64,000 nt of DNA from Idiomarina sp. GTDB taxonomy: Bacteria > Pseudomonadota > Gammaproteobacteria > Enterobacterales > Alteromonadaceae. Every line of letters begins with the position of its first letter. Position 1 is the first letter of the stretch. A model generated the notes under the pieces. It made no database searches. It saw only the letters and a list, made by a program, of their open reading frames with translations, and had not been told where the DNA came from. This document shows positions 55,899 through 64,000 of this stretch, one piece after another. Location of the stretch: assembly GCA_022565355.1 (NCBI GenBank), contig JAIUMU010000002.1, forward strand, positions 496,001 to 560,000, given 5' to 3'. The translations under genes were made by a program, and so were the position numbers.

Positions 55899-55945
55899 TC
55901 CTGGTTATTGGTTTGTACCGTATTTATATAATATTCAACAAAAAA

Positions 55946-55970
55946 AGCCGTGTTCTAGATCAACACGGCT
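55946..55970 (-). terminator. Perfect hairpin with T-run on minus strand, upstream of gabD
   Basis: AGCCGTGTT-CTAGATC-AACACGGCT, A-run at left on + strand. Confidence 0.8.
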
Positions 55971-55991
55971 TCTCATTTATAGCTACACATT

Positions 55992-56043
55992 TGTAACTAC
56001 AGAGGTGTAACTAAAGATGTGTAACTACATAGCTAACTACTCG
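55992..56043. repeat. 14-bp tandem repeat (about 3-4 copies)
   Basis: tgtaactacagagg / tgtaactaaagatg / tgtaactacatagc / taactactcg. Confidence 0.65.
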
Positions 56044-56192
56044 CTATCGTAACAGCCGTATTTAAAACGGAAGGATACGTAAAATTTACCGCCTCGACTT
56101 GGTGAACGGATGGATGCATGCCCTAGGGCCTTTGATTTTAAAGAGCTCACGTCAAAGTAGCACAACTCGGTCTCCTCAGCTATATTTACCAT
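56037..56192 (-). CDS. Small ORF, 51 aa, unknown
   Basis: MVNIAEETELCYFDVSSLKSKALGHASIRSPSRGGKFYVSFRFKYGCYDSE* (below ORF-track cutoff); followed by terminator at 55946-55970. Confidence 0.35.
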   Translation of the reverse strand: MVNIAEETELCYFDVSSLKSKALGHASIRSPSRGGKFYVSFRFKYGCYDSE

Positions 56193-56388
56193 TTTAGATT
56201 TTCAGTAAAAATAATGCAGTTATCACTATAAAATAGACGGTTGATTCGGCTTATATTTACATTTTTAATCAAACAGCTTAGCAAGAACTGACTAGACTCT
56301 CGTTAATCCCCTAGAAATCCTTTGCAGCGTTTATGCTGTTCCTTTCCTCATCATTTACCGATAATACCTACCCTTGCACTGCAAAAGA

Positions 56389-57132
56389 TCACCAATATTG
56401 CTCGATGATTTTAAACACCCAAAGGATTTTAGTCGAGAATACAACTTTAGATCCTTCATTATATTCAATCAATATTGAGTCTAAATAAATAGAATCGGGG
56501 CTTTCTAAGTTTGTAATATACCAAACCCCAGACCCACTTTTACCCTTTGGCTTAACTGGCGTATTTTTTTGTACATTATTTCCATATGAGAGGCATGTGT
56601 GTTTGAGTAACGACTTCCCATGCTTTACAAATAAAGCTTCATCATAAAAGAACTTTCCAGCATAAGCATAGGCACTTATAGCTTTTTTTAATCTGATTCT
56701 TGGATATTTGTTTCTAGACAACGGGTAACCATGAGTGAACCCATACGCCACATTCTCCACAAAGTCCCAAGGAAGCGCAATTCCTGATTTAACGACATTT
56801 AACCCGTTTTTTTGGACGAATTCACTACTTAGATGAACAATTCCAATGTCTAAGTTGTCGTCTTCCCCTTCGGTAATAACCCATTGTCCCGATAAACTAA
56901 CAAGACCACTCTTCGTAAATAGCATTATCCCTTGTTTAACTCTATTAACTGCTCTAATGACATGACCAGCAGTAACAAAGTACGATTTAGATTTGTACTC
57001 AATAATGACAGAGCTTCCTAACAGTTTAGGTTCGCTTCGACTTTCTGAGGTAAAAACTGCGTAAGTGTATTTGTCGGCATATCGCTGTGATACTTCTAAA
57101 GCATTCAGTATCGCTTGGCTAGAAAAATCCAT
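56389..57132 (-). CDS. Trypsin-like serine protease-like protein
   Basis: Triad-like motifs: YFVTAGHVI (His), DNLDIGIVHL (Asp), GKSGSGVWY (Ser). Confidence 0.65.
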   Translation of the reverse strand: MDFSSQAILNALEVSQRYADKYTYAVFTSESRSEPKLLGSSVIIEYKSKSYFVTAGHVIRAVNRVKQGIMLFTKSGLVSLSGQWVITEGEDDNLDIGIVHLSSEFVQKNGLNVVKSGIALPWDFVENVAYGFTHGYPLSRNKYPRIRLKKAISAYAYAGKFFYDEALFVKHGKSLLKHTCLSYGNNVQKNTPVKPKGKSGSGVWYITNLESPDSIYLDSILIEYNEGSKVVFSTKILWVFKIIEQYW

Positions 57133-58325
57133 TACAGTACATTAACCTCTGGCTCAGCTAACAAGTAAGGCTTGAGGCGCAGAAAAACTAGCTTCTCGGA
57201 TAGGTTATCTTTGTATGAAAAGTAAACGATATTAACTCCATTCTCTTTACTCTTAAGGAGTTTATCTTTATCCCGCGACTTAGCCTTTTTCAATCCCTCG
57301 TCCCCACCAAATAGGCCAATGGGTTTGAAGTGTTGCTCTCCCTGATATTCGATAGCCAAACATAATTCTGGTATGTATACATCAAAGCGCTGCCTATTTA
57401 ACCAAGGAGGAGAGGCTTCGCGCTGGATATTAAACTTAGGGAAAAGTACCTCGATATAATTGAATAGAAGAGTTTCATTGACCCACTTTTCACCAATTTT
57501 AGCGACCCCCTTCATACCTCTCACCTTGTTTTCTGCATCCCGCTCATCCAAACCCTCTGATATTTCAAATTTGCGGATGTAAGCTCCGTAACGAACTTTA
57601 AATGCAGAACCATACATTTTGTGACAAAAGGTCAAATCAGAGTTAGTACCTTTGCACAGGTGGCAAATACCTTTTTTATAGTTTTCGTTTTGTAAAGCAT
57701 ATTGAATATGAGGATGAGTAGAAGCCAGATTTCCTCTTGAGCGCCCAGCTTTTGTGACTGCGTCTTTGAAGCAATCACAAAAATAACTTTCTCCAGTAAC
57801 TTTATTATAGAATGTCTGCCTCCACTCCCATACTCCCAGTCTCGATGGTTGAAGCTCTAATTTGACCATCTTGAGTAAAGCTCTCAACTTCGAAAGAAGT
57901 TTTGGAGAAAAATGAATCGCACCAAGACTTACAAGAACACGATTTTTCGTTTTCAACTGAAATGTTTTAGTTTTAAAAGTAGATGGCTCATCTGAATAGG
58001 GATAAAAAGGGCTAACAAGGATAAATTTGGGTAACTTAAAACTTTTCACATCGAGCGAAGTATCGAGGGTACTGCTCATATCAAACTGAGCATAACGAAT
58101 TTCCAAGCCATTGTTTTGAATATATTCATTCAGAGATAGTTCTTTTGCAGAGTAGTGAGAAGTGAAAGTTGACTTGAATGATGACAGAGTTAAACCGACT
58201 GGATGTCTGATGAATTCACAGAGTGCTTCAAACAAACTATCTGGAATAGATAATCTCTCGGACATTATTTTCTTCTGGCAGCTAAGAAGAAAATCCTCCT
58301 CCGAAAACTCAAAAGCCAGTTCCAT
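57132..58325 (-). CDS. Zinc-knuckle protein with C-terminal PD-(D/E)XK-like nuclease domain
   Basis: RFDVYIPELCLAIEYQGEQHFKPIGLFGG ... RDKDKLLKSKENGVNIVYFSY; ICHLCKGTNSDLTFCH Cys/His cluster. Confidence 0.65.
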   Translation of the reverse strand: MELAFEFSEEDFLLSCQKKIMSERLSIPDSLFEALCEFIRHPVGLTLSSFKSTFTSHYSAKELSLNEYIQNNGLEIRYAQFDMSSTLDTSLDVKSFKLPKFILVSPFYPYSDEPSTFKTKTFQLKTKNRVLVSLGAIHFSPKLLSKLRALLKMVKLELQPSRLGVWEWRQTFYNKVTGESYFCDCFKDAVTKAGRSRGNLASTHPHIQYALQNENYKKGICHLCKGTNSDLTFCHKMYGSAFKVRYGAYIRKFEISEGLDERDAENKVRGMKGVAKIGEKWVNETLLFNYIEVLFPKFNIQREASPPWLNRQRFDVYIPELCLAIEYQGEQHFKPIGLFGGDEGLKKAKSRDKDKLLKSKENGVNIVYFSYKDNLSEKLVFLRLKPYLLAEPEVNVL

Positions 58326-58604
58326 TTTGATAACACTCCAGTAGGCAGCCTTGGTCGCTTCATAGTGACATAGTTATTCTAGCGAACTAGTTGGAGGCTC
58401 CATCATGCACCATTTGGCCTCTAGGTTACAACATAACAAGAAAACCATAACGAAGCTTCAAGCATTCAGAACGCCGGGAGTTACCATCCCGATGGTACAG
58501 CAAGTCTAGCCCTCTGGGTATTCTGCTCTCACCAAGCTATACTCTAATTGTTTGAGATACCGCATGCTGATGCGCTGTGAACGGAGACTTAAAGGAGAAG
58601 CCTT

Positions 58605-58835
58605 GTGGCAAATCAACTTGACGTGCTAGCGTTGGCAGAAGAAGTAAAACGCGATTGTGAATCAGGAGCGCTGTACCAAGACCTACTATCTCAAGGACAA
58701 ACGCTATATGGTAAAAATCCAACTTATCCAGATCACATCGAGCGCATCACTCCTGATGGGAAGAGGACGCTTGGCTATTGGCATCATGGTCAGTTTGTTG
58801 AAGACTTTTGCCTTCTATTGAACAGAGTACTTTAA
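58605..58835 (+). CDS. Small hypothetical protein (76 aa)
   Basis: GTG start with AAAGGAG upstream; ITPDGKRTLGYWHHGQF. Confidence 0.55.
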   Translation: MANQLDVLALAEEVKRDCESGALYQDLLSQGQTLYGKNPTYPDHIERITPDGKRTLGYWHHGQFVEDFCLLLNRVL

Positions 58836-58845
58836 GGTATCGCTA

Positions 58846-59127
58846 ATGCCCTATTGCCACACGGTTTTTCACGTAACTTCCCCTGAACAAATCGAAAATG
58901 TGCTATCGACTCTTACGAGAGAAAGTTTTGTGAGAGGCAAAGCAGCTTATCACCTTGCGAACGACGTTTATTCTATTGATGCTGGTGAGAATGATATCCG
59001 CGCCATTTACGATAAAGAAAAAGAGGTCATTAGATTTTTCTGTCGTTATCAGCGAGACATAGCTTTTTACGAGAAAAAGCTCCAAACCTTTGCTATAAAA
59101 AACAATATCGATATAAGACCTCAATAG
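58846..59127 (+). CDS. Small hypothetical protein (93 aa), likely co-transcribed with preceding ORF
   Basis: ATG 10 bp after preceding stop; complete ORF. Confidence 0.5.
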   Translation: MPYCHTVFHVTSPEQIENVLSTLTRESFVRGKAAYHLANDVYSIDAGENDIRAIYDKEKEVIRFFCRYQRDIAFYEKKLQTFAIKNNIDIRPQ

Positions 59128-59182
59128 GGCGAAATACGACCATACCTTCAAACTTCTTTCTTCAAAAGCTGCTGTGGTGCAA

Positions 59183-59484
59183 TCCCGTGCGCTGAGTCGA
59201 TTGTTCGGATAACTCACAGGCGCAACACCGTGCGATCAATCGATTGTTCGGATAACTCACAGGTACAACACCGTGCGATCAATCGATTGTTCGGATAACT
59301 CACAGGTACAACACCGTGCGATTAACCAATTGTTCGGATAACTCACAGGTACAACACCGTGCGATTAACCAATTGTTCGGATAACTCACAGGTGCAACAC
59401 CGTGCGATTAACCGATTGTTCGGATAACTCACAGGTGCAACACCGTGCGATTAACCGATTGTTCGGATAACTCACAGGTGCAAC
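59183..59484. repeat. 43-bp tandem repeat array, 7 units (first degenerate), each an extended imperfect hairpin
   Basis: ATTGTTCGGATAACTCACAGG recurs at exact 43-bp spacing (59200, 59243, 59286, 59329, 59372, 59415, 59458); CACC/GGTG, GTG/CAC, TTA/TAA, CCG/CGG pairing around loop ATTGTT. Confidence 0.95.
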
Positions 59485-59595
59485 TTTATGCTTTGAGCAG
59501 GGATATTTAACCGTCAGTGGTTTCTCTTTGACTTGAACATAGACTAATGCATATGTGTCAAATTGATAGAACCTAAATTAGTTGCTTCAAAACGA

Positions 59596-59621
59596 GAAAA
59601 GCCACCCGAAGGTGGCTTTTC
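59596..59621 (+). terminator. Terminator-like hairpin between repeat array and HEPN gene
   Basis: GAAAAGCCACC-CGAA-GGTGGCTTTTC, perfect 11-bp stem with built-in T-run. Confidence 0.8.
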
Positions 59622-59734
59622 CGTAGAACTTTTTCGCATGAGACCTCAATCTAAATGAGGCTACTCCGCCTTTATGTATTGTAGTCTAGACATGTTATTA
59701 TCCGAAGTCAACAACTTGAAAGCAGGGAAAGCAA

Positions 59735-60751
59735 TTGAAGTACATATCATCCAGTAGATTATCAGTTTACGAGCACCATCTTAAAGTTAAACACGATGAA
59801 GTGCTAGCGGCTTATCATTGGAACAAAGCTCTGTGTGCTGCGCTTTTCCCTGTTATCCAATGCTTGGAGGTTACATTGCGAAACGCTATTGATTGCGCAA
59901 TACGAGAAAACCCTCCCAAAGCGGCTAAAGGTCAATATAGTACTGGACCAGACTGGATCTTTTCCTTCACTGAGTACATGGGAAATAGAACACTTCCTAA
60001 TCACAAAAGATACACAAAAAACGCACGTCCCAAACAACCCGTGGACAAACAAGGCTACGTGCTGGCCTCCAACAAGACACGACTAATTACAAACTATCTA
60101 TGGGAGGAGAAGAAAGTTGTTGATGCAAGCAAAAAGCTAAAAAGAGTTGGTAAATCTGTTACACCAAACAATGTGATCTCTGTTATGGATTTCGGCTTCT
60201 GGACGAATTTTCTCTCTATCACATATGAAGACATTAGTTCGCAAATGCTGCTTTGGCCTAACCAGCTCAAAACAGTCTTCCCTAATGCTCCGGTCGGAAT
60301 CACTAGATCTGACATAGAAAAAATTTTTTTATCCATCAAAGAGTTGCGAAATAGATTAACTCATCACGAGGCTATCTGGAAGTTCTTTTATGATAACCCG
60401 GTTACTGGAATGCCTGATTACTCGAAACCCGTTTATGGTGCGAAAGCCAGTTGCTCACTTTTATTAAAGCATTACGAGGATATCCTAGAAGCTATTAAGT
60501 GGATGAGTAAGGATAGGTTAGCTAGATTTCTTGAACACCATGGTGACGCACGTTTTAGAGCCTTATGTAGCCTTGATGGGCTTCATAGTTTCATCTCTCC
60601 AGAGAAAATCACTTGTACTCATCCTATTAATAAAGGAGGGTGGGGAGTTAGAAAACTTCTAAACCAGTTAGAGAACGGGGAACCTGTGAGAATCACACGT
60701 AATGGGAAAACTGTTTATACATTGGCAAAAGATTTTCATAGAAGCTTCTAA
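59735..60751 (+). CDS. Abi-like HEPN protein with Phd/YefM-like C-terminal tail
   Basis: TTG start with AGCAGGGA upstream; Abi-like LWPNQLKTVFPNAP...IKELRNRLTHHEAIWKF (RX4H HEPN signature); C-term VRKLLNQLENGEPVRITRNGKTVYTL. Confidence 0.75.
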   Translation: MKYISSSRLSVYEHHLKVKHDEVLAAYHWNKALCAALFPVIQCLEVTLRNAIDCAIRENPPKAAKGQYSTGPDWIFSFTEYMGNRTLPNHKRYTKNARPKQPVDKQGYVLASNKTRLITNYLWEEKKVVDASKKLKRVGKSVTPNNVISVMDFGFWTNFLSITYEDISSQMLLWPNQLKTVFPNAPVGITRSDIEKIFLSIKELRNRLTHHEAIWKFFYDNPVTGMPDYSKPVYGAKASCSLLLKHYEDILEAIKWMSKDRLARFLEHHGDARFRALCSLDGLHSFISPEKITCTHPINKGGWGVRKLLNQLENGEPVRITRNGKTVYTLAKDFHRSF

Positions 60752-60795
60752 ACGTGCTAGTAGCGATTTAAAATTTTTTAAAGGGAGTTGATGCT

Positions 60796-62064
60796 ATGAG
60801 TGAAGATAAACAACTTGCGAAGGACTGTCTAATATTTAAACAAGGACAGGATAGTTTGCTTGGTGATAATGAGAGTCTTGAAGATGGTATCGAGAAGATC
60901 AGAAGCAAACTATCAGATCTAGCAAATATTAAAAATCTTCACTTTTTAATGGGCGCCGGAGCTAGTTCAGGTGCTATACCGACTATGGCTAGACTTATCA
61001 ATATAGTGGAAGCGAGAGTTGAGGGGCAGGAAACAGCGAACGATTTGGCATCACACCCTGATGACCTGATACATGATGAAGTGAAAGCACGATTCAAATC
61101 TGTTAAAGATGTCTCTCCAAACAATTTAGAAGACATACTTGGCACTCTCTATTCAAAGCGTGAGTATTCAAAAGGAATTAACGAGAAAGACAGCCTGAAT
61201 GACTTTCTTATAGAGTTAATTGAGTCTCAAATCTATTCATCTATCAACATTGACTGCACAACCGCTGAAGATTCACTAAGTTTATACAAAAAACTTTACC
61301 AGAAGTTGGCATTGCGAAATAGAGATCTCGCGAGAGTCAACGTATTCACCACTAACAACGACTTACTCAGCGAGACAGCATTAGGCTATCTTAATATCAA
61401 CTACAACAACGGTTTTAGTAGTGGTCTGTCTCGTACATTTAATCCTGCGCGTTTTTCTTACACATTTTCACGCAAGATTGATCCAAGTGTCGAAAAGTAT
61501 GAGCCTCTAGAGAATATGGTTTATCTTTACAAGCTTCACGGATCGATTAGTTGGATAGAATCAGATGACAACTCATTTTTTAACATCAAAGAGGTCGATG
61601 TAGTTCCTAATCAGCCAGCAAAATACAATAATGTACTTATCTACCCGACGCCGCTGAAACAAAATAAAAGCTTAGGTTCTCCTTATGCGGATCTAATTAG
61701 AGAGTTTCAAAACAAGCTCTTACTCCAACATGGTGTGTTAATAGTTATCGGTTATAGCTTTAGCGATGAACATATAAACAATGCGATTTATTCAGCTCTT
61801 GCGTCTAATTCAAGCCTTAGCGTGGTTATCTTTGGTAACTATTACCCTACTGAAAATCTTACGAAACTGACTGACAGGCGGATTTATCAGATCTCAGGGG
61901 AAATTGATGTTCCTGCTAAAACGGGCACAGCATCCTCAAAGGAAAATATTCACTACTTCAACTATATAGTAAATAACTTTATTCCTGATTTAGATCGCAG
62001 CAAAGATGTTGAAATACTTGAGGAGTTCATTAATTCTCTGAAGTCATTAAAGGGTGCAAAATGA
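60796..62064 (+). CDS. SIR2-family NADase-like defence protein
   Basis: LHFLMGAGASSGAIPTMARL Rossmann motif, VFTTNNDLL, YKLHGSISW, IVIGYSFSDEHIN; AAGGGAG RBS. Confidence 0.85.
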   Translation: MSEDKQLAKDCLIFKQGQDSLLGDNESLEDGIEKIRSKLSDLANIKNLHFLMGAGASSGAIPTMARLINIVEARVEGQETANDLASHPDDLIHDEVKARFKSVKDVSPNNLEDILGTLYSKREYSKGINEKDSLNDFLIELIESQIYSSINIDCTTAEDSLSLYKKLYQKLALRNRDLARVNVFTTNNDLLSETALGYLNINYNNGFSSGLSRTFNPARFSYTFSRKIDPSVEKYEPLENMVYLYKLHGSISWIESDDNSFFNIKEVDVVPNQPAKYNNVLIYPTPLKQNKSLGSPYADLIREFQNKLLLQHGVLIVIGYSFSDEHINNAIYSALASNSSLSVVIFGNYYPTENLTKLTDRRIYQISGEIDVPAKTGTASSKENIHYFNYIVNNFIPDLDRSKDVEILEEFINSLKSLKGAK

Positions 62065-64000
62065 GGATCGGGAAAATCACTTCAGTAAATTTTAACCAGT
62101 TTAGAGTGAAAATATCTTCAGAGATAAGAGGAAACTCTGTCAATGTTTCTGGTACTGTGTATTACTTCGGTAATATCGGAAGTTATTTAAAGACAGTTAA
62201 TTCAGTAGGTGAGCATTTAATTTGTGAAGTTATGTCAATTTTTGATAGCGATAACAGTTTAGGCTCAGCTGCTTATGATTTTGACAGTAATCGTGAACTA
62301 CTCTTGAAGCCTATAGGTACAATCACGAGAGATAATAGATTTAACCTTGGAGTTGGTATCTTCCCCGGAATATATAGTGAAGTAACCGTCGTCACTTTCG
62401 ATGATATGGAACTAATTCTTCATACCGGGAAAGATAAAGAGCTAAGCAAAACGATTCACCAAAGCTTTTTCCTCGGTGAGAGTAAAAACCTAATTAACTA
62501 CCCGATTAATATTTCGATAAACTCGTTTTTTAATATTCATTCGGCGGTGCTTGGCAACTCTGGTAGTGGAAAATCAAATACGATAGCTCATATCATCCAA
62601 GAAATTCACAAGAAAAAAGATAACTCTGCTATTGGTTCGCGAATACTAATTTTTGACGTCAACGGCGAATATAAAAATGCTTTTACAGGACACGAGATCA
62701 GCCCGTTTCTAAAGGTAAGGTTATTAAAACCAAATATTGAGACAGTTGAAGACGGCGTAGAACCATTTTACCTTCCGCACTTTCTTATGAATATTGACGA
62801 ATGGAGTTCGTTCCTAATGGCTACGGATGCCACCCAGCGGCCCTTCTGGGATAAGGTGCTTCAGGAAAGTTATAAGTTTTATATGATCGCGACCCATGAG
62901 GGAGCTAGCAGACAAAAGCTAATAAACTACCTTAGATTTAAGATCTGTAATCTAATCCACATACTGCAAGCACAAGGCGACAGTGATACGGCAATTATTA
63001 CTACCGCACAAGGAATAATTTATGGATTTTTAACGCTTATACAAATGGATACGAATCTTCACCGCGCATGTAATCAAGAGGGAGTGTTAAAGGATATAGA
63101 AGACTTGTATGCGAGTTGCACCATTAATTATGGTAGAAATGAAGGCAAGTTAATGAGTGCGGTACAGTTAGTTGAAAACAAGATTAATAACAATTCTCTG
63201 CGAGAAGTTATAGACTATAGAGCATCTGGCGAAGAGTATTTCGACTACCGATTTTTGAAGCAGGCAGCGAATCTTACCTTATTAGAAGAGGATGCTAGAG
63301 GTAATGGTCGGATAAGAGAATACACGTCTACGATGATGACACGATTAGATTTTTTCTTGGACAACCCCGATTGTGCTTTCATGAGACAGTCGCCCAACGG
63401 AACGACAAATATTGACCAGTACCTTGATTGGTTATGGCAGCCTAATAGCATAGTGCCATTACAAACTAACATGCTGATTATCGACACTAGCGAGCTATCA
63501 AAGGATGCATTAGAAACATTAACCTCTGTAACCTCAAGGCTTAACTTTACGTCAAGAAGGAAACTCAAAGGCTCAGCAAGGCGAGAGAAGCCAATACATC
63601 TAGTGCTAGATGAGGCTCATCGCTATATCAAGAAGGATTCAAAGTATTTACTTCGTGAAAATATATTCGAGCAGATTGCCCGTGAGGGCAGAAAGTACGC
63701 ATTGTACTTATTGGTATCATCGCAACGCCCCTCAGAATTGTCTGAAACTGTTTTATCGCAATGCTCAAACTTCATAGTCCATCGAATACAAAATGAAGTA
63801 GATATGAAGTACGTATACGCCATTCTTCCTTACTTTTCAGATGATTTTGCTAACAAAATCAAGCAATCTGTTCCCGGAGAAGCTCTAATATTTGGTAACT
63901 GTGTTTCAATGCCACTTCATGTGCGAGTAAAACAAGCGTCCCCTGAACCTAATAGTGAGAACTGCAAAGTTCATGAAGAATGGTTTAAGCCATTTCCGCC
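62061..64000 (+). CDS. HerA/DUF87-type ATPase, truncated by window end
   Basis: ATG at 62061 overlaps SIR2 stop (ATGA); MRIGKITSVNFNQFRVKI..., Walker A VLGNSGSGKSNT, RILIFDVNGEYKNAF, HLVLDEAHRYI, LYLLVSSQRPSELSETVLSQC; absent from ORF track because it has no stop in window. Confidence 0.9.
   Translation, partial: MRIGKITSVNFNQFRVKISSEIRGNSVNVSGTVYYFGNIGSYLKTVNSVGEHLICEVMSIFDSDNSLGSAAYDFDSNRELLLKPIGTITRDNRFNLGVGIFPGIYSEVTVVTFDDMELILHTGKDKELSKTIHQSFFLGESKNLINYPINISINSFFNIHSAVLGNSGSGKSNTIAHIIQEIHKKKDNSAIGSRILIFDVNGEYKNAFTGHEISPFLKVRLLKPNIETVEDGVEPFYLPHFLMNIDEWSSFLMATDATQRPFWDKVLQESYKFYMIATHEGASRQKLINYLRFKICNLIHILQAQGDSDTAIITTAQGIIYGFLTLIQMDTNLHRACNQEGVLKDIEDLYASCTINYGRNEGKLMSAVQLVENKINNNSLREVIDYRASGEEYFDYRFLKQAANLTLLEEDARGNGRIREYTSTMMTRLDFFLDNPDCAFMRQSPNGTTNIDQYLDWLWQPNSIVPLQTNMLIIDTSELSKDALETLTSVTSRLNFTSRRKLKGSARREKPIHLVLDEAHRYIKKDSKYLLRENIFEQIAREGRKYALYLLVSSQRPSELSETVLSQCSNFIVHRIQNEVDMKYVYAILPYFSDDFANKIKQSVPGEALIFGNCVSMPLHVRVKQASPEPNSENCKVHEEWFKPFP

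Follow-up and report, generated by a model that had tools for sequence, protein, structure and literature searches.

Overlapping genes for a predicted Vsr/EDxHD-type nuclease and a trypsin-like protease in an Idiomarina genomic island are probably independent cargo

Results

A nuclease gene and a protease gene share one base

The window analyzed here, a stretch of 64,000 nucleotides from Idiomarina sp., is located close to the end of a contig of 577 kb in a genome of 2.7 Mb. Two ORFs, for a predicted nuclease and a stand-alone trypsin-like serine protease, follow one another on its minus strand (Table 1), and their junction reads CTG-TA-ATG-G, so that stop and start have 1 base in common. A first-pass annotation had reported both ORFs, their coordinates, and this TAATG overlap, all of which are borne out in the sequence, as are the motifs that it listed: the Cys/His knuckle (FCDCF...CHLC) and D...EYQGEQH in the nuclease, and TAGHVI, DIGIV, and GKSGSGVW in the protease. 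Homology indicates that these are genuine conserved genes and not chance ORFs, because full-length homologues of the nuclease at 48-53% identity begin at the same start and because a congener has a 35%-identical homologue of the protease (E 6e-49). Both genes look intact. Given the overlap and the common strand, the cell probably produces both proteins together. Stop/start overlaps of 1 nt are, however, commonplace in bacterial operons, and this one, taken alone, is no proof of functional pairing. In promoter and terminator scans, sites were no more numerous than in shuffled sequence.

Table 1. Features of the locus. Coordinates are window positions unless stated otherwise; residue numbers refer to the encoded proteins.
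Feature	Position	Strand	Residues, basis, or remark
Island, part within the window	55899..64000		Right end between 55899 and 56389; low GC and empty site in congeners
Trypsin-like serine protease, 247 aa, stand-alone	56389..57132	minus	ORF and homologues
Protease catalytic triad	56962-56964; 56848-56850; 56536-56538	minus	His57; Asp95; Ser199
Base common to stop and start in the TAATG overlap	57132	minus
Nuclease, 397 aa	57132..58325	minus	ORF and homologues
Nuclease N-terminal domain			Residues about 1-160
Nuclease CxC...C(H)xC knuckle			Cys183, Cys185, Cys221, Cys224
Nuclease C-terminal domain, Vsr/EDxHD-type PD-(D/E)XK (predicted)			Residues about 258-390; Glu284, Asp315, Glu326, His332, Asp352
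Codons of the catalytic signature E284-D315-(E326)-H332-D352	57270..57476	minus	Homologue alignment
93-aa ORF between the two transcription units	58846..59127	plus
AbiD / PD-T4-5-like (Abi_2, HEPN-type) gene	59735..60751	plus
SIR2 defense protein	60796..62064	plus	PADLOC, E 2e-145
HerA helicase/ATPase	62061..64000, and 19 bases past the window	plus	E 1.6e-219
Four ginABCD-like ORFs, 447, 535, 683, and 146 aa in order from ssb	64180-69589 (L021 12180-17589)	minus

The pair lies in a defense-rich island inserted next to ssb

The two genes are low-GC cargo at the ssb-distal end of a genomic island. This island occupies about 13.8 kb, with ssb on one side and an aldehyde dehydrogenase gene on the other, and runs on beyond the window to about 69755, where it adjoins ssb. 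Five congeners have the empty site, with ssb followed directly by the aldehyde dehydrogenase gene, and the GC content is about 36-45% in the part of the island within the window compared to 45-54% in the flank. Four ginABCD-like ORFs lie on the ssb side; those of 447 and 535 aa belong to the phage-integrase/NF041502 family, and the third (683 aa) has no match. Islands of the GInt type carry ginABCD, an operon of three integrase genes and a small ORF located at one end, together with varied cargo, are often inserted at the end of ssb, have a GinC that is frequently annotated as hypothetical, and are bounded by attL and attR, imperfect direct repeats of 10-17 nt (PMC5385486). The Idiomarina island fits this published type in its insertion at the end of ssb, its order of three integrase-type genes and a small ORF, and its varied cargo, a likeness judged by gene order and insertion site (PMC5385486). 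The best candidates for GInt att repeats were no better than those in shuffled sequence. We also considered a GMT (gamma-mobile-trio) island; a single weak GmtY match, far under the cut-off, was all that was found, and GInt is therefore favored over GMT. A 14-nt repeat, CTACACATGTGTAA, is present in 3.4 copies at 55983-56029, upstream of the aldehyde dehydrogenase gene and near the presumed island end; these repeats are possibly recombinase binding sites.

On the plus strand, the island carries an AbiD-like gene followed by SIR2 and HerA genes that overlap by 4 bases and constitute a SIR2-HerA (Nezha-type) defense system. The first-pass annotation had placed the pair within 1.3 kb of a HEPN/SIR2/HerA locus. 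The defense-rich setting holds, but the distance does not, as the HEPN-type (AbiD-like) gene begins 1.41 kb off and on the opposite strand, separated from the nuclease by the 93-aa ORF and a repeat array. This array, which sits between that ORF and the AbiD-like gene, is a 43-nt direct tandem repeat at 59176-59484 with about seven copies without spacers (consensus GGTGCAACACCGTGCGATTAACCGATTGTTCGGATAACTCACA, 95% matches).

The nuclease is assigned to the Vsr / I-Bth0305I branch of the PD-(D/E)XK superfamily

The nuclease has no family match in Pfam, PADLOC, or NCBIfam. Several PHROG families match its residues from about 170 to 390, some of them annotated as HNH, homing, or intron-encoded endonucleases. 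An AlphaFold model built from a two-sequence alignment had a mean pLDDT of 39, with mostly about 55-75 over the C-terminal 110 residues, which are modeled as alpha-beta-beta-beta-alpha-beta. When this model was compared to the PDB using Foldseek, the best matches were AbaSI, the catalytic domain of I-Bth0305I (probability 1.00), and Vsr, at E values of only 0.02-0.08; sequence searches of the PDB with the family profile or the C-terminal domain yielded no credible relative of solved structure. Glu284, Asp315, Glu326, His332, and Asp352 are retained almost throughout the homologues compared, in the order typical of the EDxHD family (described in PMC3943268), His332 and Asp352 being missing only in the remotest row of the alignment. 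The four knuckle cysteines (C183, C185, C221, and C224) are invariant in the seven closer homologues. The earlier description of the protein as PD-(D/E)XK-like was thus right, and the PHROG matches, the Foldseek matches, and the conserved residues make it more precise: from profile matches and a weak fold match, we assign the nuclease to the Vsr / I-Bth0305I (EDxHD) branch of this superfamily. It has the predicted alpha-beta-beta-beta-alpha-beta core and the E-D-x-H-D order in common with I-Bth0305I, AbaSI, and Vsr; it departs from them in its N-terminal part, which includes a Cys knuckle, and in lying outside any intron.

Plasmids of Acinetobacter and Arcobacter and the genome of Acinetobacter bouvetii contain homologues (48-53% identity) that match the nuclease in length and start. 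In the Vibrio anguillarum plasmid p292, the orthologue is disrupted, with parts at L006 2236-2604 and 4914-5783; the IS66-family element ISVa11 sits between the two. The copy in one congener is broken off by the contig end, which leaves its neighbor out of view. Among 369 class-level genomes, the nuclease was found in the source genome only, and E. coli genomes gave no DNA match. Genome contigs were scanned for relatives with two short peptide patterns only, a scan that may miss some. In viral contigs, neither the nuclease alignment nor any of four protease queries matched anything except a record with the same gene as locus L013.

Relatives of the C-terminal domain are phage intron-encoded or free-standing homing endonucleases, one of which lies between two terminase annotations, and recombinase genes are often found near the plasmid copies of the nuclease. 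Such kinship would suit a reading in which the nuclease gene is a selfish element of the homing type and the protease travels along as an unrelated passenger, neither having a role in defense. However, the full-length orthologues, which have the same N-terminal domain, come from plasmids and from an Acinetobacter genome, with none located in an intron or a phage gene; in addition, no target site has been identified, and the island holds defense genes as well. We consider this origin unlikely, though about as plausible as a coupled nuclease-protease module, which is weighed below.

The protease carries an intact trypsin-like triad

No Pfam model matches the window protease itself. Nevertheless, His57, Asp95, and Ser199 align in all 12 proteins compared, within TAxH, D, and GxSG contexts, and one homologue (L009) clears the cut-off of Pfam Trypsin_2 (PF13365). 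A profile search of the PDB gave weak matches only (best E 0.02), all of them trypsin-fold serine proteases, 19 of the HtrA/Deg type and one factor Xa. As the AlphaFold model reached a pLDDT of only 29, the trypsin fold stands on sequence evidence; on that evidence, namely the triad in 12 homologues and the Trypsin_2 match of L009, the trypsin-like nature proposed in the first-pass annotation is upheld, and the protein does not appear to lack this fold. Ser199 is directly preceded by a lysine, and a valine lies six positions before it, from which we presume that no acidic S1 residue like that of classical trypsin is evident. By eye, the protein shows no evident signal peptide. The protein resembles solitary Trypsin_2 peptidases (PF13365), which have the same TAxH, D, and G-x-SG motifs and a similar length and occur alone, although it falls below any Pfam match where its homologue L009 passes.

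The protease family was detected in 9 of 395 order-level genomes, and no match to it was found in phages. The homologue in the congener (35% identity) adjoins a phage-integrase fragment and has a CBS-domain gene 560 bp upstream.

Each gene is found without the other in all relatives examined

The first-pass annotation had read the two genes as one module, a reading that hinged on their being conserved together. Within our sample, they are not. The protease is adjacent to the nuclease in none of the other nuclease loci (two Acinetobacter alleles, Arcobacter, Vibrio, Shinella, and two Rhizobium). Profile searches found no such protease anywhere on six whole plasmids (two from Acinetobacter and one each from Arcobacter, Vibrio, Shinella, and Rhizobium rhizogenes) or in the Acinetobacter bouvetii genome. 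Conversely, the nuclease is not beside any of nine proteobacterial or two Hymenobacter protease homologues, and no nuclease homologue occurs within 8 kb of the protease homologue in the congener. The gene downstream of the nuclease varies, as Arcobacter has a DUF2971 gene two bases past the nuclease stop and Acinetobacter has no codirectional gene there. These gene neighborhoods cover a few dozen loci and about four independent cases of near full-length nuclease orthologues, a small sample because both families are rare. On the Rhizobium rhizogenes Ri plasmid (L008 993-5663), genes for an ATP-binding protein and an S8 peptidase lie upstream of a distant nuclease homologue; this S8-peptidase/nuclease pair was discarded as a candidate, as it is not found beside the nuclease genes of Rhizobium CB3171 or Shinella.

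The absence of the protease from these loci bears on two ways in which it could govern the nuclease. Were the protease to degrade the nuclease and so restrain it like an antitoxin, the overlap, which makes co-translation from one operon likely, would be fitting; yet plasmids maintain orthologous nucleases without the protease, and we regard this arrangement as very improbable. If the protease instead activated the nuclease by cleavage, a gating insert might be expected. The protease-less orthologues have the N-terminal domain of the window nuclease and align with it without gaps over residues 258-390, so that no gating insert or cleavable added loop is visible there.

The pair differs from published nuclease-protease pairs

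Protease-activated nucleases are already known in bacterial immunity for nucleases of the MBL fold (PMC12799240; Tuck et al., Science 2025). In those systems a protease frees an MBL-fold nuclease, the protease being a trypsin-like domain in Hachiman and AVAST and a caspase in canu loci; nuclease-protease pairs occur in Hachiman, AVAST, Lamassu, and DRT systems, and the trypsin-associated nucleases all have disordered loops near the active site (PMC12799240). That nuclease-plus-protease combinations recur in immunity speaks against independence of the two genes studied here (PMC12799240), and functional coupling is possible. An inactive nuclease would then be cleaved by its co-translated protease on infection and go on to degrade DNA. 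The overlapping genes, the order of nuclease then protease as in the MBL pairs, the abundance of defense genes in the island, the intact catalytic residues of the protease, and its weak kinship to the LmuA trypsin domain are all consistent with such a module.

Other features set the window pair apart. Like the published pairs, it has a nuclease gene immediately upstream of a trypsin-like protease gene in a defense island, but the published nucleases have the MBL fold, whereas the window nuclease is assigned by PHROG and Foldseek matches to the Vsr/EDxHD type and has no MBL match. The published proteases are fused to HamA, Avs1a, or LmuA, whereas that of the window stands alone at 247 aa and matches LmuA only weakly and only over residues 38-107. 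No sensor such as HamA, Avs, or Lamassu is fused to or adjacent to the pair on the same strand, and the catalytic domain has no window-specific insertion relative to protease-less orthologues, unlike the published loop-bearing nucleases. Finally, the published pairs are recurrent, and the window pair was found at no other locus in our small sample. A protease-activated or protease-controlled module thus seems rather unlikely to us, and we hold it improbable that an EDxHD/Vsr-type pro-nuclease gated by a stand-alone trypsin-like protease has evolved independently of the MBL pairs.

A locus of a congener (L019 11666-16234) has, in a row, an MBL-type gene (by eye) and genes for an LmuA-type trypsin-like protease, LmuC, and LmuB, and is apparently a Lamassu system with a nuclease-protease pair of the published type. 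A similar row of MBL-type (by eye), LmuA-type, LmuC, and LmuB genes, identified by resemblance, occurs in another genome of the order (L039 3494-8065).

Discussion

The different type of nuclease, the unfused protease, the lack of a same-strand sensor, and the lack of recurrence lead us to judge independent cargo most likely. The nuclease and protease genes were probably acquired independently as accessory genes, are probably cargo of a defense or mobile-element kind, and probably each work alone. They would form one short operon within an integrase-driven GInt-type island at an ssb attachment hotspot. The nuclease, with its predicted Vsr/EDxHD-type domain and zinc-knuckle region, would most likely cut or nick DNA in a metal-dependent manner without help from the protease, and may target incoming DNA or act as a homing-like element. 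The protease would be an intracellular, trypsin-fold member of a solitary family with a substrate of its own.

If the pair does work together, proteolytic control of nucleases would have had more than one origin and would involve unrelated nucleases. As it stands, the locus is a caution that a 1-nt overlap and an address in a defense island do not amount to a conserved module; a test of co-occurrence should precede assignment of the published nuclease-protease principle.
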